From positions 1,240,001 to 1,304,000 of the forward strand of contig NZ_JAFKMA010000001.1 in assembly GCF_017304635.1 (NCBI RefSeq): 64,000 nucleotides of DNA. Direction: 5' to 3'. Of the stretch, positions 13,711 to 30,985 are shown piece after piece (the stretch's first letter is position 1; the number at the start of each line of letters is the position of its first letter). Origin of the DNA: Sphingomonas sp. (GTDB lineage: Bacteria > Pseudomonadota > Alphaproteobacteria > Sphingomonadales > Sphingomonadaceae). Under the pieces are notes generated by a model, which had not been told where the DNA came from, did no database searches, and saw only the letters and a program-made list of their open reading frames with translations. The position numbers and the translations under genes were made by a program.

Positions 13711-14843
13711 CCAGCGCCTTCACCCGGCGGGAAACCTTGCTGCTCGGCGCGAGCGCGGCGCTGGTCGGGAACGCTCCTGCTCTCGCCGCGTCCGAAGACT
13801 CGCTCCATGCGATCGCGCGGAGCCGGGGACTGCGGTTCGGGTCGGCCTTGGCATGGGGACCACCCGGCGCCGACCGCGCGTCGTTCGCCAACCCGCGCTA
13901 TGCCGCGTTGCTCGAACGCGATTGCGGATTGCTCGTCGCCGAAAATGAAATGAAGTGGCCGTCGCTCCACTATGCCCCGGCGACGTTCGACTTCACGCGA
14001 GCCGACGCGATCGTCCGCTACGCCGAGCGGCACGGTATGGCGATGCGCGGGCACAATCTGCTGTGGCATCAGCCCAAGTGGCTGCCGAAATGGGTGAATG
14101 ATTATGATTTCGGCCATCGCCCGCGCGATGCCGCGGCGGAACTGCTGACCCGACATATCGAGACGGTGTGCCGCCACTTCGGCACTCGCGTCACGGCGTG
14201 GGACGTCGTCAACGAGGCAGTGCGCCCATCGGACGGCCAGTTGTACGACACAGTCCTGTCGCGTGCCTATGGCGGGACCGAGCCGTTGCTCGATCTCGCC
14301 TTCCACACGGCGCGGGCGGCAGCGCCCGGCGCGCAACTCGTCTATAACGATTACATGGGCTGGGAGCCCGGCAATGCCGAGCATCGCGCGGGCGTGTTGC
14401 GCCTGCTCGAAGGATTCCGCCGCCGTGGCACGCCGGTCGACGCGCTCGGGCTGCAATCGCATCTCATTACGCAGGGTCGCGATGCGAGCCTCCAGGGAAT
14501 GGAGGCCGACTGGCGCCATTTCCTCGATGCCGTCACCGCAATGGGATTCGGGCTAGTGGTGACCGAACTCGACGTGCGCGACGACAATCTGCCGGCCGAC
14601 CCGGCGGCTCGCGACCGTGCCGTCGCCGACTGCACCAAGGCCTATCTCGACCTCACGCTCGACTATCGACAGGTCCGCGACGTGCTCGTCTGGGGGATGT
14701 GCGACCGCTATAGCTGGATCGAGGGGTTCAAGCCCCGCCCGGACGGTGCCCGGCGGCGTCCCTGCCCCTATGACGACGCGTTCCGGCCCAAGCCGATGCG
14801 GCAGGCGATCGCCGCCGCGCTCGCCGCGGCCCCGACCAGATAA
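13707..14843 (+). CDS. GH10 endo-beta-1,4-xylanase
   Basis: This 378-residue secreted xylanase has a GTG start at 13707 inside the GTGA overlap with xylC, giving VTSAFTRRETLLLGASAAL, a Tat leader. The GH10 barrel shows AENEMKWPSLHY (78-89), GHNLLWHQPKWLP (115-127), the acid/base E170 in AWDVVNEAV, and the nucleophile E287 in VVTELDVRDD. GLQSHL (248-253) and the C-terminal WGMCDRYSWI block are also typical. It cuts the xylan backbone into xylo-oligosaccharides for uptake. No carbohydrate-binding module is fused to it, but the next gene encodes a free domain that looks like one. Confidence 0.95.
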   Translation: MTSAFTRRETLLLGASAALVGNAPALAASEDSLHAIARSRGLRFGSALAWGPPGADRASFANPRYAALLERDCGLLVAENEMKWPSLHYAPATFDFTRADAIVRYAERHGMAMRGHNLLWHQPKWLPKWVNDYDFGHRPRDAAAELLTRHIETVCRHFGTRVTAWDVVNEAVRPSDGQLYDTVLSRAYGGTEPLLDLAFHTARAAAPGAQLVYNDYMGWEPGNAEHRAGVLRLLEGFRRRGTPVDALGLQSHLITQGRDASLQGMEADWRHFLDAVTAMGFGLVVTELDVRDDNLPADPAARDRAVADCTKAYLDLTLDYRQVRDVLVWGMCDRYSWIEGFKPRPDGARRRPCPYDDAFRPKPMRQAIAAALAAAPTR

Positions 14844-15494: not shown

Positions 15495-15504
15495 TCCTTC
15501 CGGA

Positions 15505-15540
15505 ACGGTCGCTGCCGATTTGGCAGCGACCGTGTTTTTT
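15505..15540 (+). terminator. Rho-independent terminator for the mannan/xylan operon
   Basis: A 12-bp stem ACGGTCGCTGCC/GGCAGCGACCGT with loop GATTT (15505-15533) is followed by G and six T (15535-15540) on the plus strand. It closes the eight-gene operon that starts at 6490. Confidence 0.85.
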
Positions 15541-15546
15541 GAAGCG

Positions 15547-18500
15547 CTAGAAACTGCCGCGCAGGATGAACGAAAAGCGGCGGTCGTTGATGAAGTACGA
15601 CCGGGGCGCGAGCAAATTCGGATCACCCGTATATGCCTGCTCGGTCTTGGTGACCGTGTCCGTCAGGTTCACGCCCTGCACGCCGATCTTGATCTGCTTC
15701 GTGATGTTGATGAATGCCGAAGCATCGAGGTAACCGGCCGGCGCATTGAAAATCGGCGCGTATGGGAAGATCACGTCGGCCGCGGTCAATAGGAAGCGCG
15801 ATCGCCAGTTATAAGCGACCCGCAACGAGATCGGTCCCTTCTCGTAAAAGCCTTCGACGTTCACCGTATGCTTCGACAATTGTTCGAGCGGCAGATTACC
15901 GTCAACCTTGGCGAAATTGCCGGTGTTCGACGCCGACCCGCCATTGAGGAACGAGTTGGGCAGGCCCGAGCTTTCGAGATAGGTGTAGCTCGCATTGAGC
16001 CCGAACCCGCTCAGCAGGCCCGGCAGGAAATCGAACGTCTGCTGATAGGCGACCTCGAATCCCTTGATCTTCCCGTGACCGGAATAATTGTCGGCAATCC
16101 GCACGGCCACCGGAACCGTCACGCCGTTTTGCGTGAAGTTACGCTGCACCGTACTGGCATAGAAGAAGTTATTGATATCCTTATAAAAGGCATCGAACGT
16201 CAGCGACCCGACCCGCGCAAAGTACCATTCGACCGTCGCGTCGAACTGAGTCGCCGTCGCCGGCTTCAAATACGGATTGCCGAGGTTGAACGTGACGACA
16301 TTGTCCGAACCATAACTTGCGGAGAACGAATTACGGATAGATGCCATGTCAGGCAGCGTCATGACGCGCGAAGCGGCGAAGCGCGCGATCAGCTTCGACG
16401 ACAGCTCGAACTTCAGGTTGAGGCTGGGCAGAAAATGATTGTCGGTCGTGAATGCCGTGTTCGGTGTTACGGTCTGCGCGCCGGAGATAGGCGTGACACC
16501 ATCGGCCTGAACCCCCGTAAACGTCTGCAATTGCGAGTAACCGGTTGGCCCCAACAGACAGATTCCGCTGGGTTGCCCAATCGCGACGCCGGGCGGCACT
16601 CCTTGAGGCGGTGCACCCGCGTTGGGGCAACGCGACGAATAGGATTGGTTGACGCCCAAACCTGCTGCATTGATGTTCACGGCCCCCGCCGAACGTACGA
16701 ACGTATGCACGTACCGCAGGCCGAGGTTACCCGACATCCGCACACCGAAAACGTTGTTGCTGCGGAAATTGAGCTGAGCGTACAGGTCGGTATTGCGCTG
16801 CTGAACATCCTGGATTTCGTTCGGCAGATAGCCTCCCGATCCGGGCACGACACCGGCGCGTTGCGCCGCTGGCACCCAGCCCGAGCCGTTGCCCTGTGCC
16901 AGCCATTGCTGGTTGACCGACTGGAGGAACTGCGACGCTCCCTGATAATTATTAATCAGGTCACCGGTGTAATAAAGGGCGCTGGGCGGAGCATTCGTCT
17001 GCCCGCGGAAGAAATTGGGGAAGTTGTAGAGCGCATATTGCGAGCTGTTGGTCTGTGAGAACGAGATTGGGTTGCCATTACCCCACACCTCACTCAACGC
17101 GCCCCAATTGTAGGTACTGTATTTGATCGACTGGCGGCGATCGGCGTAGCGCGCGCCGAACTTGATATCCGTCAGGAAGCCCGAATCGAACTTGCGATCC
17201 AGATCCATCTTGAACGCATATTCCTTGCCGACGCTGTCCTCGATATGATCCATCGCGGCGCGCCAGAATTGGACCCGGGGATCGGAAAAATACTGCGAGT
17301 CCGATTCGGCCAGCACGGCCGGATTGGCCGAAGCCCAGCTATAGGCGGTATTGAGCGGCTTGTGCGCGACGACCTGCGGCAGGTTGCCGGTCAGATCGAG
17401 GTTTTCATCCGCCCAGGTCGAGCCGAAGGTGCTGACATCGAGCTGCGTATGGTGCGACCGCGTGTAATCCGCATCGATATTGAAATACAGATGATCGGTC
17501 GGCTGCGCCTTAAGGTTCAGGCCGTAGTCGGTGTTGGTGTTGGTTTCCCTGACCTGACGCCGCGACAATGACTGCTGAATGCCACCAGCGGAAACGAAGC
17601 TGCTGCCCGACCCTGGCCCCGCACCGCGCCAGCCGCCGCCCGGATAGGTGACGTAGCCCTTTTGGAACAGGCCATTGGAGGCATAGGTGTAATTCTGGGT
17701 CGATCCTGCCGGGCATTCCGCACGCGTAGTGCCGCCGGGACCATCAGTGTTCTGAAGACATCCCGCCGGATAGGTATTGTATTCCGACAGATCGGGACCG
17801 GACTCGAACGTATGCTCGCCCCAATCCAACTCGGTATGGCTGCGGAGATATTGAGCAGTCAGCAGCGTCTTGCTGTCGTTGCTCTGCCACTGGAAAGCGA
17901 ATGCCTGGCCTTCACGCTTGCGATCGAAGTCCTGCGTGCGGTACGATCCGCCGAGCGGCGCATATCGCGTCCCGGCGTTATCCAGCAATCCGTCGCTTCC
18001 GCTGGTCGACGCCGTGCCGCAGGCGGACCCGGCGGCCGGAAGCGTCATCGTGTCGCCGGTACCGGGCAGCGGGTTGCGGCAGACTAGGGTCGCCTGCGTG
18101 TTCGACGCGATGGCAAGCGTGTTGTCGCGCGTCTGGAAATTGGTGACCTGGATACCGTCCGAGCGATATTTCAACCGCGAATAGGAAATGTCGCCAAGGA
18201 AACCGATCGTGCCGATATTCGTGTTGAAGGTGTCACTGACCAACAGCGACCCGGTCGGCGTCCACTTTTTCTCGAAGTCGCCATAATTGGCTTCGGCGTC
18301 GAACGCGATGTGAAGCCCTTTGTTGTCGAAGGGCTTGCGGGTGTTGAGGTTGACGGTGCCGGCAAGGCCGCCCTCGATATTCTCCGCCGTCGCATTCTTG
18401 TAGATTTCCACCGAGCCGAGCAGTTCGGCGGGGACGTCGGCAAAATTCAATGCCTGGCCGCCGATGCCGGCGGAAAACGCGTCGCGACCGTTGAATTCGG

Positions 18501-18933
18501 ACCGGACGAAATTGAGGCCGCGGACCGTGACGCCCGAGCCTTCGGCCGAGAAGTGATCGGGATCGTTCGATCCGGCGAAGCGGTTGATCGCGACGCCGGG
18601 CACGCGCTGCAGTGCCTCGGTCACGGACCGGTCGGGCAGTGCGCCGATGTCCGTCGCCGTGATCGCGTCGACGACCGTGTCGGAGTTGCGCTTGATGTTC
18701 TGCGCGTTCGCCAGCGAAGCGCGGATGCCGGTCACGACGATGTCGGACTTCGAATCACCTTGGTCGGTAGAGGTCGTGCTCTGCCCCGGGTCGGCCGCCG
18801 GCTGCGCGGGAGCCGTTTGCGCCAGCGCCGGCACCGCGAACAGCGCGGCACACAGCGCCGTTGCGGACGCACCGCCACGCAAGGCACCAACAAGAGCATG
18901 GATGTCGCGGACTCGGCGAGTGGAATACGCCAT
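15547..18933 (-). CDS. TonB-dependent outer-membrane receptor, sugar-locus type
   Basis: This 1,128-residue receptor should import oligosaccharides across the outer membrane with energy from TonB-ExbBD. A signal peptide ends near residue 39 (PALAQ). A Gln/Ser/Thr-rich linker leads to the TonB box DIVVTG at 65-70. The plug follows (ALPDRSVTEALQRVPGVAIN, VTVRGLNFVRSEFNGRDAFS, EIYKNATAENIEGGLAGTVN), then a large beta-barrel ending in the outer-membrane signature RRFSFILRGSF. Length and plug sequence fit the Caulobacter/Xanthomonas/sphingomonad subfamily. ATG 18933 was chosen because GGGGAGGA lies just upstream; the open frame continues eight codons further. The gene is divergent from the halogenase operon, and an operator candidate lies about 80 bp upstream. 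The substrate is probably xylan- or mannan-derived. Confidence 0.92.
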   Translation of the reverse strand: MAYSTRRVRDIHALVGALRGGASATALCAALFAVPALAQTAPAQPAADPGQSTTSTDQGDSKSDIVVTGIRASLANAQNIKRNSDTVVDAITATDIGALPDRSVTEALQRVPGVAINRFAGSNDPDHFSAEGSGVTVRGLNFVRSEFNGRDAFSAGIGGQALNFADVPAELLGSVEIYKNATAENIEGGLAGTVNLNTRKPFDNKGLHIAFDAEANYGDFEKKWTPTGSLLVSDTFNTNIGTIGFLGDISYSRLKYRSDGIQVTNFQTRDNTLAIASNTQATLVCRNPLPGTGDTMTLPAAGSACGTASTSGSDGLLDNAGTRYAPLGGSYRTQDFDRKREGQAFAFQWQSNDSKTLLTAQYLRSHTELDWGEHTFESGPDLSEYNTYPAGCLQNTDGPGGTTRAECPAGSTQNYTYASNGLFQKGYVTYPGGGWRGAGPGSGSSFVSAGGIQQSLSRRQVRETNTNTDYGLNLKAQPTDHLYFNIDADYTRSHHTQLDVSTFGSTWADENLDLTGNLPQVVAHKPLNTAYSWASANPAVLAESDSQYFSDPRVQFWRAAMDHIEDSVGKEYAFKMDLDRKFDSGFLTDIKFGARYADRRQSIKYSTYNWGALSEVWGNGNPISFSQTNSSQYALYNFPNFFRGQTNAPPSALYYTGDLINNYQGASQFLQSVNQQWLAQGNGSGWVPAAQRAGVVPGSGGYLPNEIQDVQQRNTDLYAQLNFRSNNVFGVRMSGNLGLRYVHTFVRSAGAVNINAAGLGVNQSYSSRCPNAGAPPQGVPPGVAIGQPSGICLLGPTGYSQLQTFTGVQADGVTPISGAQTVTPNTAFTTDNHFLPSLNLKFELSSKLIARFAASRVMTLPDMASIRNSFSASYGSDNVVTFNLGNPYLKPATATQFDATVEWYFARVGSLTFDAFYKDINNFFYASTVQRNFTQNGVTVPVAVRIADNYSGHGKIKGFEVAYQQTFDFLPGLLSGFGLNASYTYLESSGLPNSFLNGGSASNTGNFAKVDGNLPLEQLSKHTVNVEGFYEKGPISLRVAYNWRSRFLLTAADVIFPYAPIFNAPAGYLDASAFINITKQIKIGVQGVNLTDTVTKTEQAYTGDPNLLAPRSYFINDRRFSFILRGSF

Positions 18934-19011
18934 CAATTCCTCCCCTGATGAACGCACCCCGCGCGTTCAAACGATTGTTAGCGGCTGGTTCGACCGCCTG
19001 ATTGTTTCCCA

Positions 19012-19025
19012 TGGTTGCGATAACA
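19012..19025. promoter_or_regulatory. LacI-family operator upstream of the TonB receptor
   Basis: TGGTTGCGATAACA differs from the window consensus mainly at one inner position. It lies 79 bp upstream of the receptor start and 128 bp before the halogenase operon, in their shared 220-bp divergent region. Confidence 0.45.
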
Positions 19026-19101
19026 TTTTGGTTTTGGCAAGACCTCAAATGCAGTTTGGTGTTGCGCGATCGCAACATGCGGCGAGCTTTGTGTATGGCG
19101 A

Positions 19102-19115
19102 TGATACCGCTATGC
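19102..19115. promoter_or_regulatory. Weak LacI-type half-site upstream of the halogenase operon
   Basis: TGATACCGCTATGC keeps the left half-site TGATA-CG and part of the right half, with three deviations. It lies 38 bp before the first halogenase ATG. It may be chance. Confidence 0.3.
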
Positions 19116-19153
19116 AGGACGAAAAGACGCAAGGGTGAGGATCGGCAGCGGGA

Positions 19154-20668
19154 ATGGCGGACGAAGCCAAGGTCAGGGTCGTGGTCGTCGGCGGTGGCAC
19201 CGCCGGTTGGATGACCGCCGCGGCGCTGGCCAAGTTGTTGCCCACGGTCTGCTCGGTGCACCTGGTCGAGTCCGAGGCGATCGGCGTGGTGGGTGTCGGC
19301 GAAGCCACCCTGCCCCACATCCGCGCGTTCAACGAAAAGCTCGGCATCGCCGAGGCCGACTTCATGCGGTGGACGCGCGCGACCTTCAAGCTCGGCATCG
19401 AATTTCGCGACTGGGGCCGGATCGGCGACAGCTACATCCACCCGTTCGGCACGTTCGGCCGCGGTCACGGCGAGGTCGATTTCCACCATTACTGGACGCG
19501 GATGCGTGCGGCGGGCCAGCCGGTGCCGCCGCTCGAGCACTTTTCCTATGCCTGCATGCTCGCGCGCCAGAACCGGTTCCGCTTGCCGGGAACCGAGCCG
19601 CGCGACCTCGCCTCTACCTTCGGCTATGCGTACCAGTTCGATGCGCTGCTGTTCGCGCCCTATTTGCGCCAGCTTGCCGAGGGGCTCGGCGCGCAACGTA
19701 GCGAGGGCATCGTGGTTGCCGTCGATCGCGACGGGGAAAGCGGCGATATCCGTGCCGTGACGCTGCAAGGTGGCGAGCGGATCGAGGGGGACCTGTTCGT
19801 CGATTGCTCCGGATTCCGCTCGCTCCTGCTCGGCGAGGCGATGGGCGAGCCGTTCCAGGACTGGTCGCGCTGGCTGCCGACGGACCGCGCGGTGGCGATG
19901 CCGTGCCGGACCGCGACCGACGTGACGCCCTATACCGGCGCGATCGCGATGCCCGCCGGCTGGCGCTGGCGGATCCCGCTCCAGCACCGCACCGGCAACG
20001 GCTATGTCTACGCCAGCGCGTTCGTCGACGACGACACGGCGGCGACGGCACTGGCAGCGGCGGTCGAGGGCGAGGCGATCGCGCAACCCCGCCTGCTCAG
20101 GTTCCGCGCCGGTCGCCGCGAGCGTAGCTGGGTCGGCAATTGCATCGCGATCGGGCTCGCCAGCGGCTTCCTCGAACCGCTCGAATCGACCAGCATCTAC
20201 CTCGTCCAGGCGGCGATCACCGCGTTGGTCGAACTGTTTCCCGAACGCCGCGTCTCGCCGGTCGATCGCGACGAATTCAACCGGCTGATCGACCTGGAAT
20301 ATGACCGTATCCGCGATTTCCTGATCCTGCACTACCACGCCACGACCCGCGACGATTCGCCGTTCTGGGACTATGTCCGCACGATGCCGATCCCGGACAG
20401 CCTGGCCGAGAAGATCGAGCTGTTTCGCCGGCGCGGGCGCGTCGTGAAGTACCGCGAGGGCGTGTTCCTCGATGCCAGCTGGATCGCGGTGTATGTGGGC
20501 CAGGGGATCGTGCCGGACGGTCACGACCCGCGCGCCGACCTGCCGCCGCTCGACGCGCTGGCCGCGGGATTGCGCAACTTGCGGACGGAGATCGACGCGA
20601 CCGTCGCGCAAGCGCCGGCCCATATCGATTTCATCGACCGCTATTGCCCGATGGCCGAGGCGGCGTGA
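19154..20668 (+). CDS. Flavin-dependent tryptophan-halogenase-like protein 1
   Basis: This 504-residue cytoplasmic protein has the FAD-binding motif VVVGGGTAGW (10-19), GVGEATLP (47-54), the catalytic lysine K79 in ATFKLGIEF (same number as in PrnA/RebH), the halogenase hallmark WRWRIP (270-275) and the active-site glutamate region FLEPLES (339-345). There is no signal peptide. Enzymes of this family use FADH2, O2 and halide to form a hypohalous species that the lysine guides to an aromatic substrate. The physiological substrate of the TonB-receptor-linked branch is not known to me. It is the first gene of a five-gene operon with a 4-nt overlap at each junction. It is divergent from the TonB receptor. 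Confidence 0.88.
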   Translation: MADEAKVRVVVVGGGTAGWMTAAALAKLLPTVCSVHLVESEAIGVVGVGEATLPHIRAFNEKLGIAEADFMRWTRATFKLGIEFRDWGRIGDSYIHPFGTFGRGHGEVDFHHYWTRMRAAGQPVPPLEHFSYACMLARQNRFRLPGTEPRDLASTFGYAYQFDALLFAPYLRQLAEGLGAQRSEGIVVAVDRDGESGDIRAVTLQGGERIEGDLFVDCSGFRSLLLGEAMGEPFQDWSRWLPTDRAVAMPCRTATDVTPYTGAIAMPAGWRWRIPLQHRTGNGYVYASAFVDDDTAATALAAAVEGEAIAQPRLLRFRAGRRERSWVGNCIAIGLASGFLEPLESTSIYLVQAAITALVELFPERRVSPVDRDEFNRLIDLEYDRIRDFLILHYHATTRDDSPFWDYVRTMPIPDSLAEKIELFRRRGRVVKYREGVFLDASWIAVYVGQGIVPDGHDPRADLPPLDALAAGLRNLRTEIDATVAQAPAHIDFIDRYCPMAEAA

Positions 20669-22158
20669 CGACGGGGCCGATCCGTCAGATCGTGGTGGTC
20701 GGCGGCGGGCTGGCCGGCTGGTCGGCGGCCGTCGCGCTCAAACGACGCGTGCCGTCGCTCGATGTCACGATCCTGCCGCTCGCCCCGGCACCGGATGCGC
20801 TGGCCGACCGCATCGGCGCGACCCTGCCGTCGATCCTGGGCTTCCACGCCGATCTCGGCATCGGCGAGGACGATGCCGTGTTGCGCACCGGGAGCAGCTA
20901 TCGCCTGGGGAGTCGCTTCGTCGGCTGGTCGTTCGACGCGCCTCCCTACATCCACGCTTACGGGCAGCATGGCCGGCCCTTGCCCGGCGGCTCGTTCCAT
21001 CTGCATTGGGCGCGCGCCACGACGCAGGCGAGCGCACCGCCGTATGACCTGTTCTCGGCCGCCGCCGCAATGGCGAGCGACGGGCGGTTCGCGCCGCCGC
21101 CGGACGACCCCGCCGACCCGTTCGCCGGGTACGAATACGGACTGTACCTCGACCTTCCGCGGTACACGGCGATGCTGCACGCCTTCGCGCGGCATTGCGG
21201 CGTGCGGGAGCAGACGGTCCCGCTGCGCGAGGTGCGGCTGCGCGGCGACGGCTGGATCGATGCGCTCGTGCTGGCGGACGGGTCGGAACAGCGCGGCGAC
21301 CTGTTTCTCGATTGCACCGGACCGGCGGCGATGCTGCGCAGCAAAATCGATGACCGGCGCGACGATTGGTCGCAATGGCTGCCGTGCGACCGCATCCTGT
21401 TCGCGACGGAAGAAGCGACGACGCACCCCTGCCCGCTCGACGAGGTGACGGCCTGGGCCGCCGGGTGGCGCTGGTCAGCGACGACGCCGCGCAGTCGGTC
21501 GACCGGGATCGTCTATGCATCGGCTGGCGCCAGCGACGATCAAGCGGCGCGCATCCTGGAGACGATGGGCACCGCCCCTGCCGATGTTCCGGTCGCGATC
21601 GCAGCCGGCAATCGCGCCGAGCCCTGGCGCGGCAATTGCGTCGCGATCGGCGAAGCGGCGACGCAGGTCGAGCCGCTCGAATGGACCAACCTGCACCTCG
21701 CCCACAGCGCGATCGACCGGCTGATCGCGATGCTGCCCGACCGCGAGTGCGCGACGGTCGAGGCGGCGGACTATAATCGCCAGACGGAGGCCGAAGCCGA
21801 ACGCGTCCGCGATTTCCTGGTGCTGCATTACGCGGCCGCACGGCGCGACGAACCGTTCTGGCGCGACCGCGCCGTAGCGTTGCTGCCCGAATCGCTGGCG
21901 CACACGCTGGCGCTGTTCCGCGAGCGCGGCCGCCTGCCGATCTACGAGGAGGAAACCTTTGCGCGCGATAGCTGGCTGGCCGTGCTGTTCGGCCAAGGCG
22001 TGCGCCCGCGCCGGATCGACCCGTTGATCGCCGCGACGCCGATCGCCGAATCGCAGGCGCTGATGAACCGCTGGCGCCAGGCGATCGCCGCCGGCGTCGC
22101 CGCTCGCCCGACCCTGTCGACCTATCTCTCCCACCAGATGAGCCAGCTATCCCGATGA
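20665..22158 (+). CDS. Tryptophan-halogenase-like paralog 2, lacking the catalytic lysine
   Basis: This 497-residue paralog starts with GTG at 20665 in a GTGA overlap with paralog 1. The FAD motif is kept as VVVGGGLAGW (10-19). The usual GVGEATxP has become DRIGATLP, the catalytic lysine is R80 in SSYRLGSRF, and the WxWxIP hallmark is replaced by WRWSAT (268-273). The glutamate of PLE (about E339) remains. The frame is intact over the full family length and the C-terminal blocks (RVRDFLVLHYAAARRDEPFW) are conserved, so it is not a decayed pseudogene. It may be a non-halogenating flavoprotein, a reductase-like partner or a structural subunit; no halogenation should be assumed. Confidence 0.85.
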   Translation: MTTGPIRQIVVVGGGLAGWSAAVALKRRVPSLDVTILPLAPAPDALADRIGATLPSILGFHADLGIGEDDAVLRTGSSYRLGSRFVGWSFDAPPYIHAYGQHGRPLPGGSFHLHWARATTQASAPPYDLFSAAAAMASDGRFAPPPDDPADPFAGYEYGLYLDLPRYTAMLHAFARHCGVREQTVPLREVRLRGDGWIDALVLADGSEQRGDLFLDCTGPAAMLRSKIDDRRDDWSQWLPCDRILFATEEATTHPCPLDEVTAWAAGWRWSATTPRSRSTGIVYASAGASDDQAARILETMGTAPADVPVAIAAGNRAEPWRGNCVAIGEAATQVEPLEWTNLHLAHSAIDRLIAMLPDRECATVEAADYNRQTEAEAERVRDFLVLHYAAARRDEPFWRDRAVALLPESLAHTLALFRERGRLPIYEEETFARDSWLAVLFGQGVRPRRIDPLIAATPIAESQALMNRWRQAIAAGVAARPTLSTYLSHQMSQLSR

Positions 22159-23771
22159 ACGAACATTCGATCCGCGACGTCGTCATCGTCGGCGGCGGCA
22201 CCGCCGGCTGGATGGCGGCGGCCGGCCTCTCGCGTTTCCTCAACAACGGCTACACTCGCATCACGCTGGTGGAATCGGAGGAGATCGGCACGATCGGCGT
22301 CGGCGAGGCGACGATCCCGCCGCTCATCAACTTCAACCGCATGCTCGGGCTGAACGAGAACGAATTCCTGGCGGCGACCGGGGGCACGTTCAAGCTTGGC
22401 ATCGAGTTCGTCGACTGGGGCGGCCTCGGCGAGCGGTATTTCCACCCGTTCGGCCATTACGGCCAGGATTTGCAGGGCATCCACTTTCACCAATTGTACC
22501 TGCGCGAGCGCAAGCGCCGGGTGATGCCCGACATCTCGGCCTGGTCGATGAGCTCGGTCGCCGCCTCGCTCGGCCGGTTCGGGCGCGCGGCGGAAGGCGC
22601 GCAGTCGCCGGTGCGCGAATTGTTCTACGCGTTCCATTTCGACGCCGGGCGCTATGCGCGCTACCTGCGCGATTATGCCGAGCGCGCCGGGGTCATGCGC
22701 GTGGAAGGCCGCATCGTCGATGTCGGCCTGCGCGCCGGAGACGGGTTCGTCGAGGGGGTGACGCTGGCCAATGGCGAGCGCGTCACGGGCGACCTGTTCA
22801 TCGACTGCTCCGGCTTTCGCGGGCTGTTGATCGAGCAGGCGCTGGAGACCGGTTACGAGAGCTGGCAGCACTGGCTGCCGTGCGATCGCGCGGTCGCGGT
22901 GCCATCGGCGCTGACCGGCGATCCCGATCCGTACACGCGGTCGACCGCGCGCACGGCCGGCTGGCAATGGCGCATCCCGTTGCAGCATCGCATGGGCAAC
23001 GGGAACGTCTATGCCAGCGATCATCTCGACGACGCGACGGCGGAACGCATGCTGCTCGAGTCGATCGAGGGCGAGCCGCTGGCCGAACCGCGTCGGGTTG
23101 CGTTCACGACCGGCCGGCGCAAGGCCGCGTGGAACCGCAACGTGGTGGCGCTCGGCCTGTCGAGCGGGTTCATCGAGCCACTCGAATCGACCAGCATCCA
23201 TTTCATCCAGGCCGGCATCTCGCGCCTGATCTCGCTGTTCCCCGACAAGCGCTTCGATCCCACCGAACGCGACGAATATAATCGCCAGATCGACGAGATT
23301 TACGCCGACGTGCGCGACTTCATCATCCTGCATTACAAGGCGACGACGCGCGACGACACGCCGTTCTGGCGCCAGTGCCGCGATATGACGATCCCCGACT
23401 CGCTGGCGCGCAAGATCGAACTGTTCCGCAGCAAGGGCCGGCTGTTCCGCGAAGGGCGCGAGCTGTTCGCCAACGCGAGCTGGGTCGCGGTCTGTCTCGG
23501 CCAGCACATCGTCCCGCGCGAGTACGAACCCGCGGTCGATGCCCTCGACGAGGACAAGGTCGCCGCGGCACTCGAACAGATTCGGCTCGGCTATTGGGAA
23601 ACCGCGCAGCATCTGCCGTCACACGGCGATTTCCTGCGTCGCGTCGCCCCCGCCCCGTTCGCCGCCCCGCCGTCGGCAGCGACTGCCGCCGCCGCACCGG
23701 AGGGCGACGTGCCGTTCTTCTCGTTCACCGCCGAATCGCCCTTCCCGACCGGCTCCGGTTCCCCGGTATGA
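22155..23771 (+). CDS. Flavin-dependent tryptophan-halogenase-like protein 3
   Basis: This 538-residue paralog carries the complete motif set: VIVGGGTAGW (10-19), GVGEATIP (48-55), K80 in GTFKLGIEF, WQWRIP (270-275) and FIEPLES. It begins with an ATGA overlap with paralog 2. It is longer than the others because of an Ala/Pro-rich C-terminal tail (from about residue 505) ending FTAESPFPTGSGSPV, which looks disordered and could mediate an interaction. There is no signal peptide. Related enzymes of this branch have been reported to brominate indole in vitro, but their natural substrate is open. Confidence 0.88.
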   Translation: MNEHSIRDVVIVGGGTAGWMAAAGLSRFLNNGYTRITLVESEEIGTIGVGEATIPPLINFNRMLGLNENEFLAATGGTFKLGIEFVDWGGLGERYFHPFGHYGQDLQGIHFHQLYLRERKRRVMPDISAWSMSSVAASLGRFGRAAEGAQSPVRELFYAFHFDAGRYARYLRDYAERAGVMRVEGRIVDVGLRAGDGFVEGVTLANGERVTGDLFIDCSGFRGLLIEQALETGYESWQHWLPCDRAVAVPSALTGDPDPYTRSTARTAGWQWRIPLQHRMGNGNVYASDHLDDATAERMLLESIEGEPLAEPRRVAFTTGRRKAAWNRNVVALGLSSGFIEPLESTSIHFIQAGISRLISLFPDKRFDPTERDEYNRQIDEIYADVRDFIILHYKATTRDDTPFWRQCRDMTIPDSLARKIELFRSKGRLFREGRELFANASWVAVCLGQHIVPREYEPAVDALDEDKVAAALEQIRLGYWETAQHLPSHGDFLRRVAPAPFAAPPSAATAAAAPEGDVPFFSFTAESPFPTGSGSPV

Positions 23772-25300
23772 GGGCGGATGCGATGCGGCGCATCGTCATC
23801 GTCGGCGGCGGGACGGCGGGATGGATGGCGGCCGCAGGGATCGCGCGCGCCGTGGGCGAATTGCCGGGCCTGACGATCGAACTGATCGAATCCGACGAGA
23901 TCGGCACGGTCGGCGTCGGCGAGGCGACGATCCCGCAGATCGTCCTGTTCAACCAATTGCTCGGGATCGACGAAGCCGACTTCGTCCGCGCGACCAACGC
24001 CACCTACAAGCTCGGGATCGAGTTCGTCGACTGGACGCGGATCGGGCATCGCTACGTCCATCCGTTCGGTTTCTACGGCCTCGACATGAAGGGGGTGGAG
24101 TTCCACCATTTCTGGCTGAAAGGTCGCGGGCTCGGCGATCCGACGCCGCTCGATGCCTATTCGCTCGGCGTGGTGGGCGGGATGCAGGGCCGCTTCGCGC
24201 ATCCCCGCCCCGACCAGCCCAATTCGCCATTGTCGAAGCTCGGCTACGCCTTCCAGTTCGATGCCGCGCTGTATGCGCGCTACCTGCGCGGGCTGGCCGA
24301 ACGCTGGGGCGTCAGGCGGACCGAGGGGCGGATCGTCGACATGGCCCGTAATGGCGACAACGGCCTGGTCGACGCGGTCGTGCTGCAATCGGGCGCGCGG
24401 ATCGCGGGCGATCTGTTCATCGACTGCTCGGGGTTTCGCGGGCTGCTGATCGAGGGCGTCATGCAGGCCGGGTTCGAGGACTGGTCGGCGTGGCTTCCCT
24501 GCGATCGCGCGTTCGCCGTGCCGTGCGAGCTCGGCGGCGACCGCCTGCCGATGACGCGCGCGACCGCGCGACCGGCGGGATGGCAATGGCGCATCCCGCA
24601 GCAGCATCGCATCGGCAACGGCTATGTCTATTCGAGCGCGCACGTCTCCGACGACGAAGCCGCGGCGACGTTGCTCGCCAATCTCGACGGCGCTCCGTTG
24701 GCCGATCCCAAGCCGCTCCGCTTCACCGCCGGGCACCGCAAGCAGGCATGGGTCGGCAACGTCGTCGCGCTCGGCCTGGCCGGCGGATTCCTCGAACCGC
24801 TCGAATCGACCAGCATCCACCTCGTCCAGTCGGGGATCGCGCGATTGATGGCGCTGTTCCCGCATCGCGGGCTGGAGCCGGTCGAGATCGCGCGGTTCAA
24901 CGCCGACAGCGCGCGGGAATATGAGGATATCCGCGACTTCCTGGTACTCCATTACAATGCGACCGAGCGCGACGACACGCCGTTCTGGGACTATTGCCGC
25001 ACGCTGGCGCCGCCGCCCGGTTTGGCCGACAAGCTGGCGATGTTCCGGCGCAACGGCCGCATCTTCCGCGAGCATGAGGAATTGTTTACCGAGACGAGCT
25101 GGCTGTCGGTGATGGCCGGCCAGGGCGTCGAGCCGGCGGGCTATCATCCGGTCGCCGACCTGCTGTCGGATGACGAGACGCTGCATCGGCTCGCGCATAT
25201 TCGCGACGTGATAGCAAAGACCGCGGCGGCGATGCCGCACCAGGCCGATTATCTGCGCCAGATCGGGTGTGGCGAGCCGCCGCTCCGCCGCGCGTCATGA
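23768..25300 (+). CDS. Flavin-dependent tryptophan-halogenase-like protein 4
   Basis: This 510-residue paralog has full motifs: VIVGGGTAGW (10-19), GVGEATIP (49-56), K81 in ATYKLGIEF, WQWRIP (272-277) and FLEPLES. The ATG at 23768 overlaps the stop of paralog 3 by four bases; a second in-frame ATG (MRRIVIVGG) lies five codons later. The open frame runs further upstream only as a shadow of paralog 3. It is closest by eye to paralog 3, sharing IELIESDEIGTVGVGEATIP-like and LFIDCSGFRGLLIE blocks, which suggests tandem duplication. It is followed by the JmjC-type oxygenase with another ATGA overlap. Confidence 0.88.
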   Translation: MRADAMRRIVIVGGGTAGWMAAAGIARAVGELPGLTIELIESDEIGTVGVGEATIPQIVLFNQLLGIDEADFVRATNATYKLGIEFVDWTRIGHRYVHPFGFYGLDMKGVEFHHFWLKGRGLGDPTPLDAYSLGVVGGMQGRFAHPRPDQPNSPLSKLGYAFQFDAALYARYLRGLAERWGVRRTEGRIVDMARNGDNGLVDAVVLQSGARIAGDLFIDCSGFRGLLIEGVMQAGFEDWSAWLPCDRAFAVPCELGGDRLPMTRATARPAGWQWRIPQQHRIGNGYVYSSAHVSDDEAAATLLANLDGAPLADPKPLRFTAGHRKQAWVGNVVALGLAGGFLEPLESTSIHLVQSGIARLMALFPHRGLEPVEIARFNADSAREYEDIRDFLVLHYNATERDDTPFWDYCRTLAPPPGLADKLAMFRRNGRIFREHEELFTETSWLSVMAGQGVEPAGYHPVADLLSDDETLHRLAHIRDVIAKTAAAMPHQADYLRQIGCGEPPLRRAS

Positions 25301-26313
25301 CACCCCTGCCCCGACCCAGGCCGATCGCCGAAATCACCGGGATCGACCGCCGACGGTTCGATGCCGAGATACGGCCGGCCGGACAGCCGGTGGTCTTGCA
25401 CGGACTCGCCGCCGAGTGGCCGGCGGTCCGTGCCGCTCGGTCCGGTGCCGAGGAGGCGGTCGCCTATCTCAAGCGCTTCAGCCATGCCGAACCGGTCGCC
25501 GCGATCGTCGGCGCGCCGGAGATCGAGGGGCGGTTCTTCTACACACCGGATCTGACGGCGCTGAACTTCACCCGCGGGCAATCGCCGCTCGATCCCTTTC
25601 TCGACCGATTGCTGCGCGATCGCGATGCGGCGCGGCCCTATGCGATGGCGGTGCAGTCGATCCCCGCGCCCCAGCTATTGCCCGGCTTCATCGAAGAGAA
25701 CCGGATCGACATCGTCGCCGATGCGGTCACGCCGCGGCTATGGCTCGGCAATGCGATCCGCGTCGCCGCACATTTCGACCTGATGGAGAATATCGGGATC
25801 GTGGTCGCGGGCCGGCGCCGCTTCACGCTGTTTCCGCCCGACCAAATGGCGAACCTGTATATGGGTCCGATCGAGTTGACCCCCGCCGGCACCCCGGTCA
25901 GTCTGGTCGACCTCGCCGCGCCCGACCTCGACCGCTTTCCGCGCTTCGCCGAGGCGATGGCCCACGCACAGGAGGCGACGCTCGAGCCGGGCGATGCGAT
26001 CTACATCCCGTATCATTGGTGGCACGGCGTCGCGTCGCTCGACCCGGTCAATCTGTTCGTCAATTACTGGTGGAACGACGCGCGGCAGGATCTCGGCAAT
26101 CCGTACGACACGCTGCTCCACGCCTTGTTCGCGCTCCGCACCCTGCCCGCGGACCAGCGCGAAGCTTGGCGGATCATGTTCGACCAACTCATCTTCCGGC
26201 CGGATGGCGACGCCTTCGCCCACATCCCGCCCGAGGCGCAGGGCGTGTTCGGCCCGGCCGATGCCGATAATTACCAGCGGATGCGCGCGACATTGCTGCG
26301 CAACCTGGCCTAG
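25297..26313 (+). CDS. JmjC/cupin_8-type Fe(II)/2-oxoglutarate oxygenase-like protein
   Basis: This 338-residue cytoplasmic protein has the cupin_8 (FIH-like) layout. GQPVVLHGLAAEWPAV lies near residues 29-44. The metal pair H159-x-D161 is in VAAHFDLMENIG, FTLFPPDQM follows at 176-184, and the distal ligand, probably H243, is in YIPYHWWHGV. All three iron ligands are therefore present. Relatives such as FIH hydroxylate side chains of proteins, so a protein or peptide substrate is plausible, but small molecules are possible. The start at 25297 (ATGA overlap with halogenase 4) makes it the fifth gene of the halogenase operon. Its stop shares the CTAG at 26310-26313 with the convergent paralog. 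Confidence 0.82.
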   Translation: MTPLPRPRPIAEITGIDRRRFDAEIRPAGQPVVLHGLAAEWPAVRAARSGAEEAVAYLKRFSHAEPVAAIVGAPEIEGRFFYTPDLTALNFTRGQSPLDPFLDRLLRDRDAARPYAMAVQSIPAPQLLPGFIEENRIDIVADAVTPRLWLGNAIRVAAHFDLMENIGIVVAGRRRFTLFPPDQMANLYMGPIELTPAGTPVSLVDLAAPDLDRFPRFAEAMAHAQEATLEPGDAIYIPYHWWHGVASLDPVNLFVNYWWNDARQDLGNPYDTLLHALFALRTLPADQREAWRIMFDQLIFRPDGDAFAHIPPEAQGVFGPADADNYQRMRATLLRNLA

Positions 26314-27335
26314 CTTCGCTGCAGCATTCGGACGAGAAAATCGCGCAGGCGATGCGTGCGGGCCGGGCTCGACGGTCCCAGCACGCTGCGCGCGGCGGGT
26401 GGCAGATGATCGGCCGCGCGATCGGCATCCTGCGCGAATACCATATGGTCGAACCACGCCCGCCACGTCGCCTTCTCGGCCGGCGGCAAGTCGCGGATCG
26501 CCAGCACCGCGTGGATCAGGGCGGGGAACGCCGCCCCGGATTCGTGTCCCCACCAGTAGTTGACCAACACGTTGAGCGGATCGAACGCGCGAACGTGGTG
26601 CCACCACAAGGGCGGGATGAAGATCGCATCGCCGGGGCCGAGTTCGGCGGTCTCGGCATGGGTCAGGGCGTCCGTGAAGCGCGGATATCGATCGACATCC
26701 GGCGCCTCCGGATCGACCATGCTGACGGGCTGGCCGGCCAGCGTGTGGTCGAGCGGCCCGACATACAGATTGGCGAGCTGGTCGGGCGGGAACAGCGTGA
26801 AACGCCGCCGCCCGGCGACGACGCAGGCGATGTTGCTCGACATGTCGTAATGCGTCGCGACTTGCGTGGCGTTGCCGATCCACAGCCGCGCGGGTGCGTC
26901 GATCGCAAGACCCAGCGGATTGGCCGCCTCCCATCCCGGCAGGTGCTCCGGCGCGGTCGCGGAATTGGCGTACAGAGCGTGCGGCCGCGCGACGCCTTCC
27001 TCGGCAAAGCGCAGCAACTCGCCGAGCAGGGCGCCGAGCGCTACCGACTGGCGATGGAAGTTGAGCCCGGTGACGCTGTCGTCGGCGTAGAAGAACCGTC
27101 CGCCGATCTCTGGCGGGCCGATCATCACGTCGAGCGGTCGGCCACCGCCGAAGCCGGCGAGATATTCGGCGATCGCACGGGCGCCCTGCTTAGCCGCTCC
27201 GACCGCCGGCCAATCGGCGACCTGCCCGCGCAGAACGACCGGGCGTGACGCCGTCACGATCTCGCGCGCGAACGTATCGGCGTCGACGGCCCGACGTTCG
27301 GTGATGGGCTTCAGGTCGCGCAGGTCGATCGACAT
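26310..27335 (-). CDS. Second JmjC/cupin_8-type oxygenase-like protein
   Basis: This 341-residue paralog of the preceding gene lies on the opposite strand, tail to tail. It shows RPVVLRGQVADWPAVG (31-46), the iron pair H162-x-D164 in VATHYDMSSNIA, RRRFTLFPPDQLANLYVGP, and the distal His (H246) in IPPLWWHHV, the form seen in FIH. No signal peptide is present. Shared blocks such as RRRFTLFPPDQ and VNYWW show common descent by duplication followed by inversion. Its upstream region (27336-27432) is shared with the divergent deacetylase gene and contains an operator, so it could be induced with the sugar genes. The substrate is unknown. Confidence 0.82.
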   Translation of the reverse strand: MSIDLRDLKPITERRAVDADTFAREIVTASRPVVLRGQVADWPAVGAAKQGARAIAEYLAGFGGGRPLDVMIGPPEIGGRFFYADDSVTGLNFHRQSVALGALLGELLRFAEEGVARPHALYANSATAPEHLPGWEAANPLGLAIDAPARLWIGNATQVATHYDMSSNIACVVAGRRRFTLFPPDQLANLYVGPLDHTLAGQPVSMVDPEAPDVDRYPRFTDALTHAETAELGPGDAIFIPPLWWHHVRAFDPLNVLVNYWWGHESGAAFPALIHAVLAIRDLPPAEKATWRAWFDHMVFAQDADRAADHLPPAARSVLGPSSPARTHRLRDFLVRMLQRS

Positions 27336-28431: not shown

Positions 28432-29862
28432 TCAGCCCTGCATCGCTTCCAGTTCCTTGCCCTTGGTCTCATGAATGAACTTCTGGACCAGGAAGAAGCT
28501 GATGAGCGCGCAGCCGCCATACAGGCTGTAGCTGACCGCCAGGCCCAGTCCGGCCGCCATGATCGGGAAGCTCTGCGCGATCAGATAGTTGGAGAACCAC
28601 TGCGCGAACCCGCACACCGCGAGCGCCGATCCGCGGATCTGGTTGGGGAACATCTCGCCCAGCATCACCCACATCACCGGCCCCCAACTGACGTTGAAGA
28701 ACACGACGTAGAGGTTGGCCGCGACCACCGCGACGATGCCCAGATCCTTCGACAGGACCAGCTTGCCGTCCGGGTCGAGCGTCCCGTGGCTGAAGGCGTA
28801 GACCATCACGAACAACGTGACGGTCATCCCGGCCGACCCGATCAGCAGTAACGGCTTGCGACCGATCCGGTCGATCACCGCGATGGTGATGAGGCAGGCA
28901 CCGATCGACACGGCGCCCGATACGATGTTGATGAGCAGCGAGTCCGCCTCGCTGAACCCGGCGAGCTGCCACAACGTCGCGCCATAATAGAAAATGACGT
29001 TGATGCCGACGAGCTGCTGGAACACGGCCAGCAACAGCCCCGCCCAGACGATCGCCCGGATGCCGAGGAATCCGCGCCCGCCGGCCGGCGTCAGCACGTC
29101 GGCCAGGCGTGGACGGTGGTCGGCCGAAAAACTCGCGCGGATCTCGTCGAGCTTGGTGCGTGCGGCACTTTCTCCGAACAGGCGCGCGAGCACGCCCGCG
29201 GCTTCGTCATGCCGCCCCTTCGCCACCAGGTATCGCGGGCTCTCGGGAATGAACATCAACGCGATCAGGAAGACCGCGGCCGGGATCGCCTGCATCAGGT
29301 ACATCCAGCGCCAAGCCTCGATTCCGCCCCAGAACGCGTTGGTCGAAACGCCGGCGGCCTTGGCCAGGAAGAAATTGATGACGAACGCGGCGGTCAGGCC
29401 GCTGATAATCATGATCTGCTGCACCGTGGTCATTCGCCCGCGGACGTTGGCGGGCGCCACTTCGGAGATATAAGCGGGCGACAGCACGCTCGCCGCGCCG
29501 ACCGCGATCCCGCCGCAAATCCGCGCGAGCACGAAGAGCGGCTGGGCATGCGCAAAACCCTGGGTCAGCGCCCCGGCGAGGAACAGCACCGCGGCCAGCC
29601 GCATGACGTTGCGACGACCCATCGCATCGGCCAGCGTGCCGGCGAAGAACGCACCGATGAAGCATCCGATCAGCAGCGATCCGACCGTGAATCCCAGCCC
29701 GCCTTCGCTCAGATGGAATGCCGCTTTCAGGCCATCCTGCGTGCCGTTCACCGCGCCGCTGTCATAGCCGAACAGCAATCCGCCGATCGTCGCGACCGCG
29801 ACGATCGAGGCGATGAACCCCATATTGGCGCCGCCGGGCGGCGCCGCTTGCGTATCCCTCAT
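28432..29862 (-). CDS. Sugar-porter MFS transporter (xylose/hexose:H+ symporter type)
   Basis: This 476-residue inner-membrane protein of the sugar-porter family has about 12 predicted membrane segments. Signatures visible in order are GGLLFGYDSGAVNG, GTLADAMGRRNVMRL, YISEVAPANVRGRM, FIPESPRYLVAKGR, FQQLVGINVIFYYG, DRIGRKPLLL, GPVMWVMLGEMFPNQIRG and the terminal HETKGKELE. It resembles XylE-type proton symporters and probably carries xylose or another monosaccharide. The ATG at 29862 has GGGAGAGGG upstream. A start at 29907 would place the operator palindrome inside the coding region and is unlikely. It lies 64 bp after the LacI-family gene on the same strand, separated by an operator. Confidence 0.9.
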   Translation of the reverse strand: MRDTQAAPPGGANMGFIASIVAVATIGGLLFGYDSGAVNGTQDGLKAAFHLSEGGLGFTVGSLLIGCFIGAFFAGTLADAMGRRNVMRLAAVLFLAGALTQGFAHAQPLFVLARICGGIAVGAASVLSPAYISEVAPANVRGRMTTVQQIMIISGLTAAFVINFFLAKAAGVSTNAFWGGIEAWRWMYLMQAIPAAVFLIALMFIPESPRYLVAKGRHDEAAGVLARLFGESAARTKLDEIRASFSADHRPRLADVLTPAGGRGFLGIRAIVWAGLLLAVFQQLVGINVIFYYGATLWQLAGFSEADSLLINIVSGAVSIGACLITIAVIDRIGRKPLLLIGSAGMTVTLFVMVYAFSHGTLDPDGKLVLSKDLGIVAVVAANLYVVFFNVSWGPVMWVMLGEMFPNQIRGSALAVCGFAQWFSNYLIAQSFPIMAAGLGLAVSYSLYGGCALISFFLVQKFIHETKGKELEAMQG

Positions 29863-29893
29863 CAACCCTCTCCCACGCCACGCCTTTGTTGGC

Positions 29894-29905
29894 GTTAGCG
29901 CTAAC
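29894..29905. promoter_or_regulatory. LacI-family operator upstream of the MFS gene (perfect palindrome)
   Basis: GTTAGCGCTAAC is a perfect 12-bp palindrome between the regulator stop (29927) and the transporter start (29862). It would control a transporter promoter separately from the regulator. Confidence 0.7.
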
Positions 29906-29926
29906 AACCCCGCCCCGGCGCTGCTG

Positions 29927-30985
29927 TCAAGCGGGTCGCGCGGCCGGTCGGCGGCGGGGCGGAGCGTCCGACTGGCGCCGTACCAAGGTGAAATCGAGCA
30001 GGCGATGCTCGCGCTCCCCGGCGCCCGCGCCCGCGCGGATGGTTGTCACCAGCATCTCGATTGCGGCCCGTGCCATGTCGTCGATCGGCTGGTGGATCGT
30101 GGTGAGCTCGGGCCACGTCACCGTAGCCAGCGTCGTATCGTCGAACCCGCACACGGTCAGGTCGCCCGGCACATCGAGCCCCAATTTGTGCGCGACCGCA
30201 ACGGTCGCCGCGCCCATGTCGTCGTTGCTGGCGAAGATCGCGGTCGGCGCATCCTCGCGATCGATCAGTTGCTCGGCCGCATCGAGGCCCGACCGGTATG
30301 TGAAGAGACCCGACGCGATCAGCGTTTCGTCGACCGGCAACCGTGAATCGCGCAACGCCGCCTTGTACCCGTCGAGCCGCAAGCTGCTCGCGGTATGCAC
30401 CGGATCGCCGGTGATGAACCCGATGCGACGATGCCCGAGCGAGACGATGTGCTTCGTCATCGCATAGGCCGCCCCGCCCTCATCGATGTCGACCGCCAGC
30501 ATTTCGGGCGCCGGCGCGCCGGATCCGATCAAGACGGTCGGGATGCCCTCCGCGATCAACAGGCGGCGAAGCTCCCGCGATTCGTTGAGCGGCGACGGTA
30601 GCAGGATGCCGTCGATACCGCCCTGGATCAGGTGACGCGCCGCGTCGAAGCCCTGATCGGCGACGTCGCAATGCTCGACGATCAGCTGTGCGTCGTGGCG
30701 TCGGGCCTGATCGAGCCCGCCCAGCAGGAAGGCGCTGAAATAACCGGCGCTGGGATTGCTGTAGAGCAGGCCGAGCCGGCATTGCTCCGCCCCCGCGAGC
30801 GCGCGCGCGGCGGAGTTCGGCGAATAATTGAGCTCGGCGATCGCGTCCTTCACGACATCGCGGGTCGCGGGGCGAACCTTGGCCTCCCCATTGATGACGC
30901 GCGAGACGGTCATCGGCGACACACCGGCGCGGCGCGCGACGTCGGCGATAGTGGGGGCGGAACGGACTCGACGGGGTGATTTCAC
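29927..30985 (-). CDS. LacI-family transcriptional regulator (probable pentose/xylan regulator)
   Basis: This 352-residue repressor has an N-terminal LacI helix-turn-helix: PTIADVARRAGVSPMTVSRV at 11-30, then the hinge YSPNSAARALAG. A periplasmic-binding-protein-like sugar domain follows (LLYSNPSAGYFSAFLLGGLD, IDGILLPSPLNESRELR, GHRRIGFITGDP, IFASNDDMGAATVAVAH). It uses a GTG start at 30985; the nearest upstream ATG is out of frame. It is the only transcription factor in the window and lies between two perfect copies of the operator palindrome, so it is the natural candidate to bind all of them. The inducer is likely xylose or a xylo-oligosaccharide, as with Caulobacter XylR, whose xylX promoter carries a very similar site from memory. 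Confidence 0.88.
   Translation of the reverse strand: MKSPRRVRSAPTIADVARRAGVSPMTVSRVINGEAKVRPATRDVVKDAIAELNYSPNSAARALAGAEQCRLGLLYSNPSAGYFSAFLLGGLDQARRHDAQLIVEHCDVADQGFDAARHLIQGGIDGILLPSPLNESRELRRLLIAEGIPTVLIGSGAPAPEMLAVDIDEGGAAYAMTKHIVSLGHRRIGFITGDPVHTASSLRLDGYKAALRDSRLPVDETLIASGLFTYRSGLDAAEQLIDREDAPTAIFASNDDMGAATVAVAHKLGLDVPGDLTVCGFDDTTLATVTWPELTTIHQPIDDMARAAIEMLVTTIRAGAGAGEREHRLLDFTLVRRQSDAPPRRRPAARPA

Follow-up and report, generated by a model that had tools for sequence, protein, structure and literature searches.

The window analyzed here is a stretch of 64,000 nucleotides from Sphingomonas sp. (Sphingomonadaceae; assembly GCF_017304635.1, contig NZ_JAFKMA010000001.1, positions 1,240,001 to 1,304,000). 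It carries a five-gene plus-strand operon coding for four proteins of the flavin-dependent halogenase (FDH) family and one Cupin_8/JmjC protein. As the original prediction had stated, each of the four junctions is a 4-nucleotide overlap and the operon shares its promoter region with a TonB-dependent receptor (TBDR) gene. This gene is divergent from the operon and of the TIGR01782 type (15547-18957, minus strand; the likelier start is an ATG at about 18933). FDH1 (19154-20668; Trp_halogenase, 620 bits) is a BrvH-type halogenase with every catalytic motif present, and motifs are also intact in FDH3 (22155-23771; 657 bits) and FDH4 (23768-25300; 625 bits). FDH2 (20665-22158; PF04820, 362 bits), read from a GTG start, is a pseudohalogenase. 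The last gene, CUP1 (25297-26313; Cupin_8, 213 bits), has an intact Fe(II) triad (H159-x-D161...H243). Hence, the four flavin-dependent halogenases originally predicted have to be reduced to three: only FDH1, FDH3 and FDH4 retain the catalytic residues, and gene 2 encodes a conserved lysine-less paralogue. The five proteins appear to be cytoplasmic, in agreement with the original prediction and with a Rossmann motif located at the N-terminus.

A lysine-less paralogue beside FDH1

FDH2 can be aligned along its full length to BrvH, the Pseudoalteromonas enzyme 9luq and Xcc4156. In the window copy, the catalytic lysine is replaced by arginine, the GVGEAT flavin loop is lost, GWRWSAT occupies the place of GWxWxIP, and the glutamate contacting the ribose of flavin adenine dinucleotide (FAD) at the end of strand beta-2 is gone. 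All eight remaining halogenases encoded in the genome retain the lysine.

We examined the pairing of the two genes by running FDH1 as the only query against 397 family genomes (E <= 1e-190; FDH2 was not used), and took the surroundings of all 45 places found, in 43 genomes, as the sample (the window, L021 and L075-L117). The threshold defines FDH1, and the total is a lower bound, as G091 and G245 hold dead copies without a match. At 45 of 45 places, the gene that follows FDH1 on the same strand is an FDH2-type lysine-less paralogue. The fetched stretches contain a gene of the FDH3 type in 44 cases, of the FDH4 type in 35 and a CUP1-type cupin in 32, and four references recognized a TBDR in 38. 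Smaller cassettes comprise TBDR, FDH1, FDH2 and FDH3 and have no gene labelled as FDH4 (L078 and L097, for example). Tight coupling, which had also been predicted, recurs in these relatives: the 4-nucleotide overlap was counted at 39 of 45 junctions between genes 1 and 2, 13 of 13 measured between genes 2 and 3, 34 of 35 between genes 3 and 4, and 28 of 32 between gene 4 and the cupin, with a bias toward short overlaps because the start closest to the preceding stop was chosen. A search with gene 2 as query gave 23 loci, 16 of them with FDH1 to FDH4 and CUP1 in order and two others, L029 and L040, interrupted by contig ends; this set is biased toward having gene 2, and the pairing claim rests on the FDH1 search instead. 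A strict FDH2 search (E <= 1e-120) gave matches in just 2 of the 249 family genomes covered, indicating that close FDH2 orthologues are rare and that the wider type is visible only through its place after FDH1.

Across the 45 loci (alignment rows from frames extending past the gene were trimmed by the alignment), the catalytic lysine is present in 45/45 FDH1, 42/42 FDH3 and 35/35 FDH4 proteins once three FDH3 rows and one FDH4 row, all cut, are set aside, and GxGxxG and WxWxIP are kept likewise. It is present in none of the 45 FDH2 proteins, which carry R (42 cases), Q, L or V (one each). The glutamate of GEAT is found in 45/45 FDH1 versus 0/45 FDH2 proteins and the beta-2 glutamate in 45/45 versus 1/45, and the Ile-Pro of WxWxIP is missing from FDH2 in all 45 (one being a gap). 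The first two Rossmann glycines are retained in 45/45 FDH2 proteins and the aspartate of DC[ST]G in 44/45. Forty-two of the 45 FDH2 frames are 471-502 amino acids long, the short ones having 416, 437 and 455. A structural model of FDH2, based on 38 of the 45 sequences aligned, has a predicted local distance difference test score (pLDDT) of 94.2 and a template modeling (TM) score of 0.91 to BrvH (6frl), the entry that is the top PDB match of both this model and FDH1 (E 9.4e-144). In BrvH, the K83A replacement of the catalytic lysine abolishes activity (PMC5945002), and the conserved active-site lysine of halogenases has been called crucial (PMC7336383). FDH2 thus keeps the fold and the Pfam membership and fails the defining catalytic features; judged by its residues, it cannot be a halogenase. 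Judged by sequence, FDH1, FDH3 and FDH4, which have the same catalytic motifs as BrvH and Xcc4156 (6y1w), can be added to the BrvH type as new members.

Similar arrays exist outside this set. The order TBDR, active, dead, active, active is found in Phenylobacterium deserti (L039; K to S), in Niveispirillum (Azospirillaceae; NZ_CP025614; K to S) and in G245, of the same genus as the window (K to A), and TBDR, active, dead, active in the Pseudomonadota families f189 and f211 (K to S). At a xylan locus of Catenovulum adriaticum (Gammaproteobacteria), an active gene is followed by an eroded dead copy (42.6 bits) that has also lost GxGxxG; within the 45-place sample, the dead copy of L113 is heavily eroded as well (97 bits). 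The residue replacing the lysine varies with lineage (R, S, A or L). When the dead Phenylobacterium copy was used as query, 6 of 385 genomes of the class were matched; of these hits, L118 and two f51 loci were checked, and the matched genes were active copies adjoining dead ones. As controls, five tandem halogenase pairs were inspected (L184, L186, L195 and L197, viewed with 1.5 kb flanks, and L210). The lysine is present in both copies of all five, so the active-dead pattern does not follow from tandem duplication by itself.

Phylogeny, selection and the receptor link

In a 69-row tree built by a quick method, the gene-2 proteins fall on one side of a branch with a Shimodaira-Hasegawa-like approximate likelihood ratio (SH-aLRT) of 98, where 17 FDH2 rows and the Phenylobacterium copy stand together, and the gene-1 proteins are likewise separated with a value of 85. 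In a more careful 45-row tree, whose bootstrap is not fully settled, active genes from different families come together largely according to their position. Of two position-1 groups, the first (support 96/92) unites genes of the window type with those from f189, f211 and Catenovulum, and the other has 98/48. Position 3 has 89/89, and position 4 (96/99) takes in the gene that is third in f189 and in f211; the position-1 gene of Phenylobacterium is left unplaced. This grouping by position suggests an old age for the ordered array. The dead copies of all lineages sit on very long branches and require two changes on the best tree.

Ratios of nonsynonymous to synonymous substitution (dN/dS) between close species were 0.15-0.26 for FDH2, 0.10-0.14 for FDH1, 0.07-0.18 for FDH3, 0.04-0.14 for FDH4, 0.08-0.22 for CUP1, 0.11-0.22 for the second cupin CUP2 and 0.06-0.16 for the TBDR, as calculated by the Nei-Gojobori method from nine pairs per gene that are not independent (seven loci in two groups). 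FDH2 is under purifying selection and is constrained less than the active copies.

The receptor was followed with the window TBDR as query against 394 family genomes (E <= 1e-250). An orthologue was found in 33 genomes, all of which belong to the 43 with FDH1; in 31 of the 33, less than 7 kb of the same contig separates receptor and FDH1, and the receptor adjoins FDH4-CUP1 in G086 and FDH3-FDH4-CUP1 in G311. No TBDR orthologue lacking halogenases, which could have served as a contrast, was present among the 33. Ten of the 43 FDH1 genomes have no receptor at this threshold, and in several of them a more distant TBDR is adjacent. The original prediction had made its receptor hypothesis depend on conserved co-occurrence across related genomes, and co-occurrence was found, since all 33 orthologues adjoin cassette halogenases.

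The link extends to the rest of the genome (3.18 Mb), which has nine Trp_halogenase genes, 35 TBDR plugs, three Cupin_8 genes and two SapC genes. For eight of the nine halogenases a plug is at most 6.7 kb away, and for the ninth the distance is 9.1 kb; by genome fraction, the nearness of all four halogenase clusters to plugs has a probability of about 3e-5 to 7e-4, depending on the distance used. Single halogenases adjoin TBDRs at L016 (4830-8991) and L017 (6761-11177), which read by eye as GH32 (fructan) and amylase loci. Judged from the gene content of these two loci, what the halogenases are associated with is receptors and not xylan. A separate cluster of the same genome (L015, 4049-11996) consists of TBDR, halogenase, SapC, Cupin_8 and halogenase; both of its halogenases have the lysine, and the first lacks the proline of WxWxIP (GWIWNIG). 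As had been predicted, no flavin reductase accompanies the operon, and PF01613 had no match across the whole genome at E <= 0.001, in a search that was positive in 13 of 14 control genomes; FADH2 would therefore need another reductase type.

Eight tryptophan positions of the receptor are conserved at a level of at least 95% across 30 of the 33 orthologues. Tryptophan makes up a mean of 1.23% (0.93-1.64) of the cassette orthologues versus 0.73% (0.19-1.25) of halogenase-free receptors from the window's own genome, the latter being nine of its 35 receptors. This enrichment is not decisive, because the cassette orthologues form one clade and the three further receptors of the genome that have a halogenase link show no such excess (0.47-1.06%). 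The tryptophan richness of the cassette receptor is thus a weak hint that the receptor is the target, and the cassette enzymes may modify the receptor.

Candidate roles of FDH2 and its partners

Cumulatively, the comparisons establish the gene order, the fact that FDH2 alone has lost catalytic and flavin residues, its persistence next to FDH1 under purifying selection, and co-occurrence with the receptor. We consider it fairly probable that these genes form a conserved receptor-linked module, in which active FDH1, pseudohalogenase FDH2 and active FDH3, often with FDH4 and a JmjC protein, adjoin a TBDR and FDH2 acts as a non-catalytic partner. From its sequence and setting, FDH2 is most likely a non-catalytic partner subunit of FDH1; a docking or structural subunit fits better than a second enzyme because of the gene order, the kept overlap, a dead site left free to vary and the constant presence of the gene. 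FDH2 would then have no redox chemistry of its own. Coupled translation would make it in step with FDH1, and the two may assemble, with FDH2 either holding and positioning the substrate or activating FDH1. FDH3 and FDH4 would work on the same target as FDH1, and CUP1 would hydroxylate it.

Several observations weigh against this assignment. The glutamate preceding the conserved serine, which we take to be a catalytic residue, is present in 45/45 FDH1 versus 6/45 FDH2 proteins, and the window copy is among the six. FDH2 evolves under weaker constraint, its dN/dS being 1.2-2.2 times that of FDH1 in the same pairs. A single origin of all dead copies is possible at most, one change being enough in 32% of 200 bootstrap trees. 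FDH1 itself is patchy in the family (43/397 genomes), and in some genomes the receptor lies away from the FDH1-FDH2 pair (by about 205 kb in G311). Finally, the comparisons of tryptophan conservation and content established no receptor feature that is tied to the halogenases.

As for the target, the JmjC protein offers some guidance. Its HxD...H iron triad is invariant in 29 of 29 aligned cupins (27 CUP1-type proteins, CUP2 and the L015 cupin). What we take to be the position of the 2-oxoglutarate-binding lysine is an arginine (R174) in all 29; arginine can serve in place of lysine in some 2-oxoglutarate enzymes. A CUP1 model (pLDDT 91.4) is nearest to TYW5, FIH and JMJD5, with TM scores of 0.57-0.66 by query length and, for JMJD5, of 0.82-0.86 by that protein's own length. 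By sequence as well as by model, these are the solved structures closest to CUP1, at 18-23% identity in the fold matches, and they act on tRNA or proteins. With the iron triad kept and protein or tRNA hydroxylases as its closest relatives, CUP1 might plausibly hydroxylate a macromolecule. The open sites of BrvH and Xcc4156 led their authors to propose peptide substrates and to put forward MibH as an analogy for Xcc4156 (PMC7336383). MibH, ChlH and a leader-guided brominase of ribosomally synthesized and post-translationally modified peptides do act on peptides (abstracts of PMC12518702 and PMC10286304); they sit in peptide natural-product clusters, an apparent difference from the cassette. Given the open active site of the BrvH type and the fact that the closest JmjC relatives act on macromolecules, a polypeptide handled with the receptor, be it the receptor or another exported protein, is a somewhat likelier target than a free small molecule. 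In its fullest form, this proposal would be a hetero-oligomeric machine in which FDH2 docks the receptor or a co-exported polypeptide for regiospecific halogenation in the cytoplasm by FDH1, FDH3 and FDH4, and the JmjC protein adds a hydroxyl. We advance it tentatively and consider it, taken as a whole, unlikely; if true, TonB receptors across Pseudomonadota would have a dedicated system for their post-translational modification that is induced by sugar.

A different possibility, which we rate as a minority view of some standing, is that the active enzymes halogenate a small aromatic compound, such as indole or phenolics released from xylan, for signaling or detoxification, and that the receptor link reflects shared regulation only. 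BrvH brominates indole in vitro, and enzymes of the BrvH type are characterized by halogenating indole and not free tryptophan. GH10, GH43, LacI-family and major facilitator superfamily (MFS) genes are nearby; in 31 of the 45 loci (among L080-L116), the labelled gene that directly precedes FDH1, in the same orientation, is an MFS gene. However, the activity of BrvH toward indole is low and the authors doubt that indole is the natural substrate (PMC5945002). Moreover, halogenase clusters adjoin receptors where the locus serves another sugar (L016 and L017 by eye, and L210 with an annotated fucosidase), and the JmjC relatives of CUP1 target macromolecules.

It is quite improbable, in our judgment, that FDH2 is instead a live flavoprotein oxygenase that does not halogenate. 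Its models would be QhpG, LodB and GoxB, the flavoproteins of tryptophylquinone maturation, which oxidize a tryptophan within a protein chain; QhpG is halogenase-like in structure and acts on a peptidyl tryptophan (PMC7876137). The retained Rossmann glycines and DC[ST]G aspartate would fit such an enzyme, and GoxB is the top NCBIfam match of FDH2, at 27.6 bits (cut-off 400); matches to the QhpG, LodB and GoxB models reach 18.6-27.8 bits only, with cut-offs of 240-400. Against this, FDH2 has lost the FAD-ribose glutamate in 44 of 45 copies and the FAD-loop glutamate in every one, the lysine replacements of dead copies differ by lineage, and the Catenovulum copy is also without GxGxxG. That FDH2 is a decaying duplicate, kept only since its loss inside the operon would be polar, is very improbable: it evolves faster than the active copies and includes the eroded and short forms mentioned above, but its dN/dS is far below 1, 42 of its 45 frames have 471-502 amino acids, it is missing in 0 of 45 places, and it is kept after the gene-order change in 28 of the 45 loci, in which FDH1-FDH2 faces FDH3, FDH4 or CUP1 on the opposite strand and no FDH3 follows.

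Like FDH1, the BrvH gene adjoins a second halogenase gene (PMC5945002); the accessible parts of the BrvH and Xcc4156 papers describe active enzymes and mention no inactive partner, unlike the FDH1-FDH2 cassette. PltD of pyoluteorin biosynthesis is halogenase-like and tabulated as 'Not clear if FHal' (PMC6864650), and it belongs to another pathway. We found no published account of the cassette, or of a pseudohalogenase in receptor-linked loci, within a limited literature coverage that left subscription journals mostly outside. BrvH-type halogenases are widespread in genomes, and the papers examined do not give their natural substrate; assays with indole may have overlooked that substrate for want of a partner. 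A conserved dead paralogue, located behind one active copy at all places examined, provides a concrete handle for finding what FDH1 and FDH2 bind together. In addition, genes annotated as 'tryptophan 7-halogenase' or 'tryptophan halogenase family protein' include conserved non-halogenases, for instance the copies in Niveispirillum and S. parapaucimobilis, a point of relevance to enzyme mining.

Neighboring genes and candidate regulation

The operon is flanked by a GH10 endo-xylanase gene (13458-14843, plus strand; PF00331, 261 bits; the listed frame probably starts too early), an MFS sugar transporter gene (28432-29907, minus strand; PF00083, 370 bits), a LacI-family regulator gene (29927-30985, minus strand; PF00356, 72 bits) and a GH43 glycosidase gene (31122-32246, plus strand; PF04616, 87 bits). 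Because these genes surround the operon, the locus is, by its gene content, of the xylan type. No genes for nonribosomal peptide or polyketide synthases were present among the neighbors scanned (GH10, TBDR, Cupin_8, polysaccharide deacetylase, MFS, LacI and GH43), in accordance with the original prediction; its further statement that no transporter is present holds for the operon only, as the MFS gene lies 2.1 kb beyond its end.

The intergenic region shared by the TBDR and FDH1 contains the half-site TGTTAGCG (18976-18983, plus strand), resembling what we take to be the 'xyl box' consensus, TGGTAGCGCTAACA. The pattern TG[GT]TA[GA]CG is found in 12 of 19 stretches upstream of FDH1 and is absent from seven; dinucleotide shuffles of the same stretches gave a mean of 0.44 and a maximum of 3 of 19, in a test that is post hoc, as the pattern was picked after TGTTAGCG had been seen, and that involves related genomes. 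A sigma-70 promoter scan of 18850-19300 found nothing. The half-site is consistent with LacI-type xylan control, and xylan use probably switches expression of the cassette through a LacI-type repressor.

The C-terminus of FDH3 (23600-23771) consists of a Pro/Ala-rich linker and F[SA]F..[ED].P, a short motif that reads FSFTAESPF in the window. The motif occurs in 14 of 22 Sphingomonas-type FDH3 proteins, and those of other genera end in a different tail; from its sequence, it is a possible docking motif. CUP2, a second Cupin_8 protein (26310-27335, minus strand), lies tail to tail with CUP1 and is 48% identical to it, and CUP2-like frames are found in 13 of the 23 loci from the gene-2 search. 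In G110 (L021, region 15499-16327), the gene after CUP1 reads by eye like a phenylalanine 4-hydroxylase.

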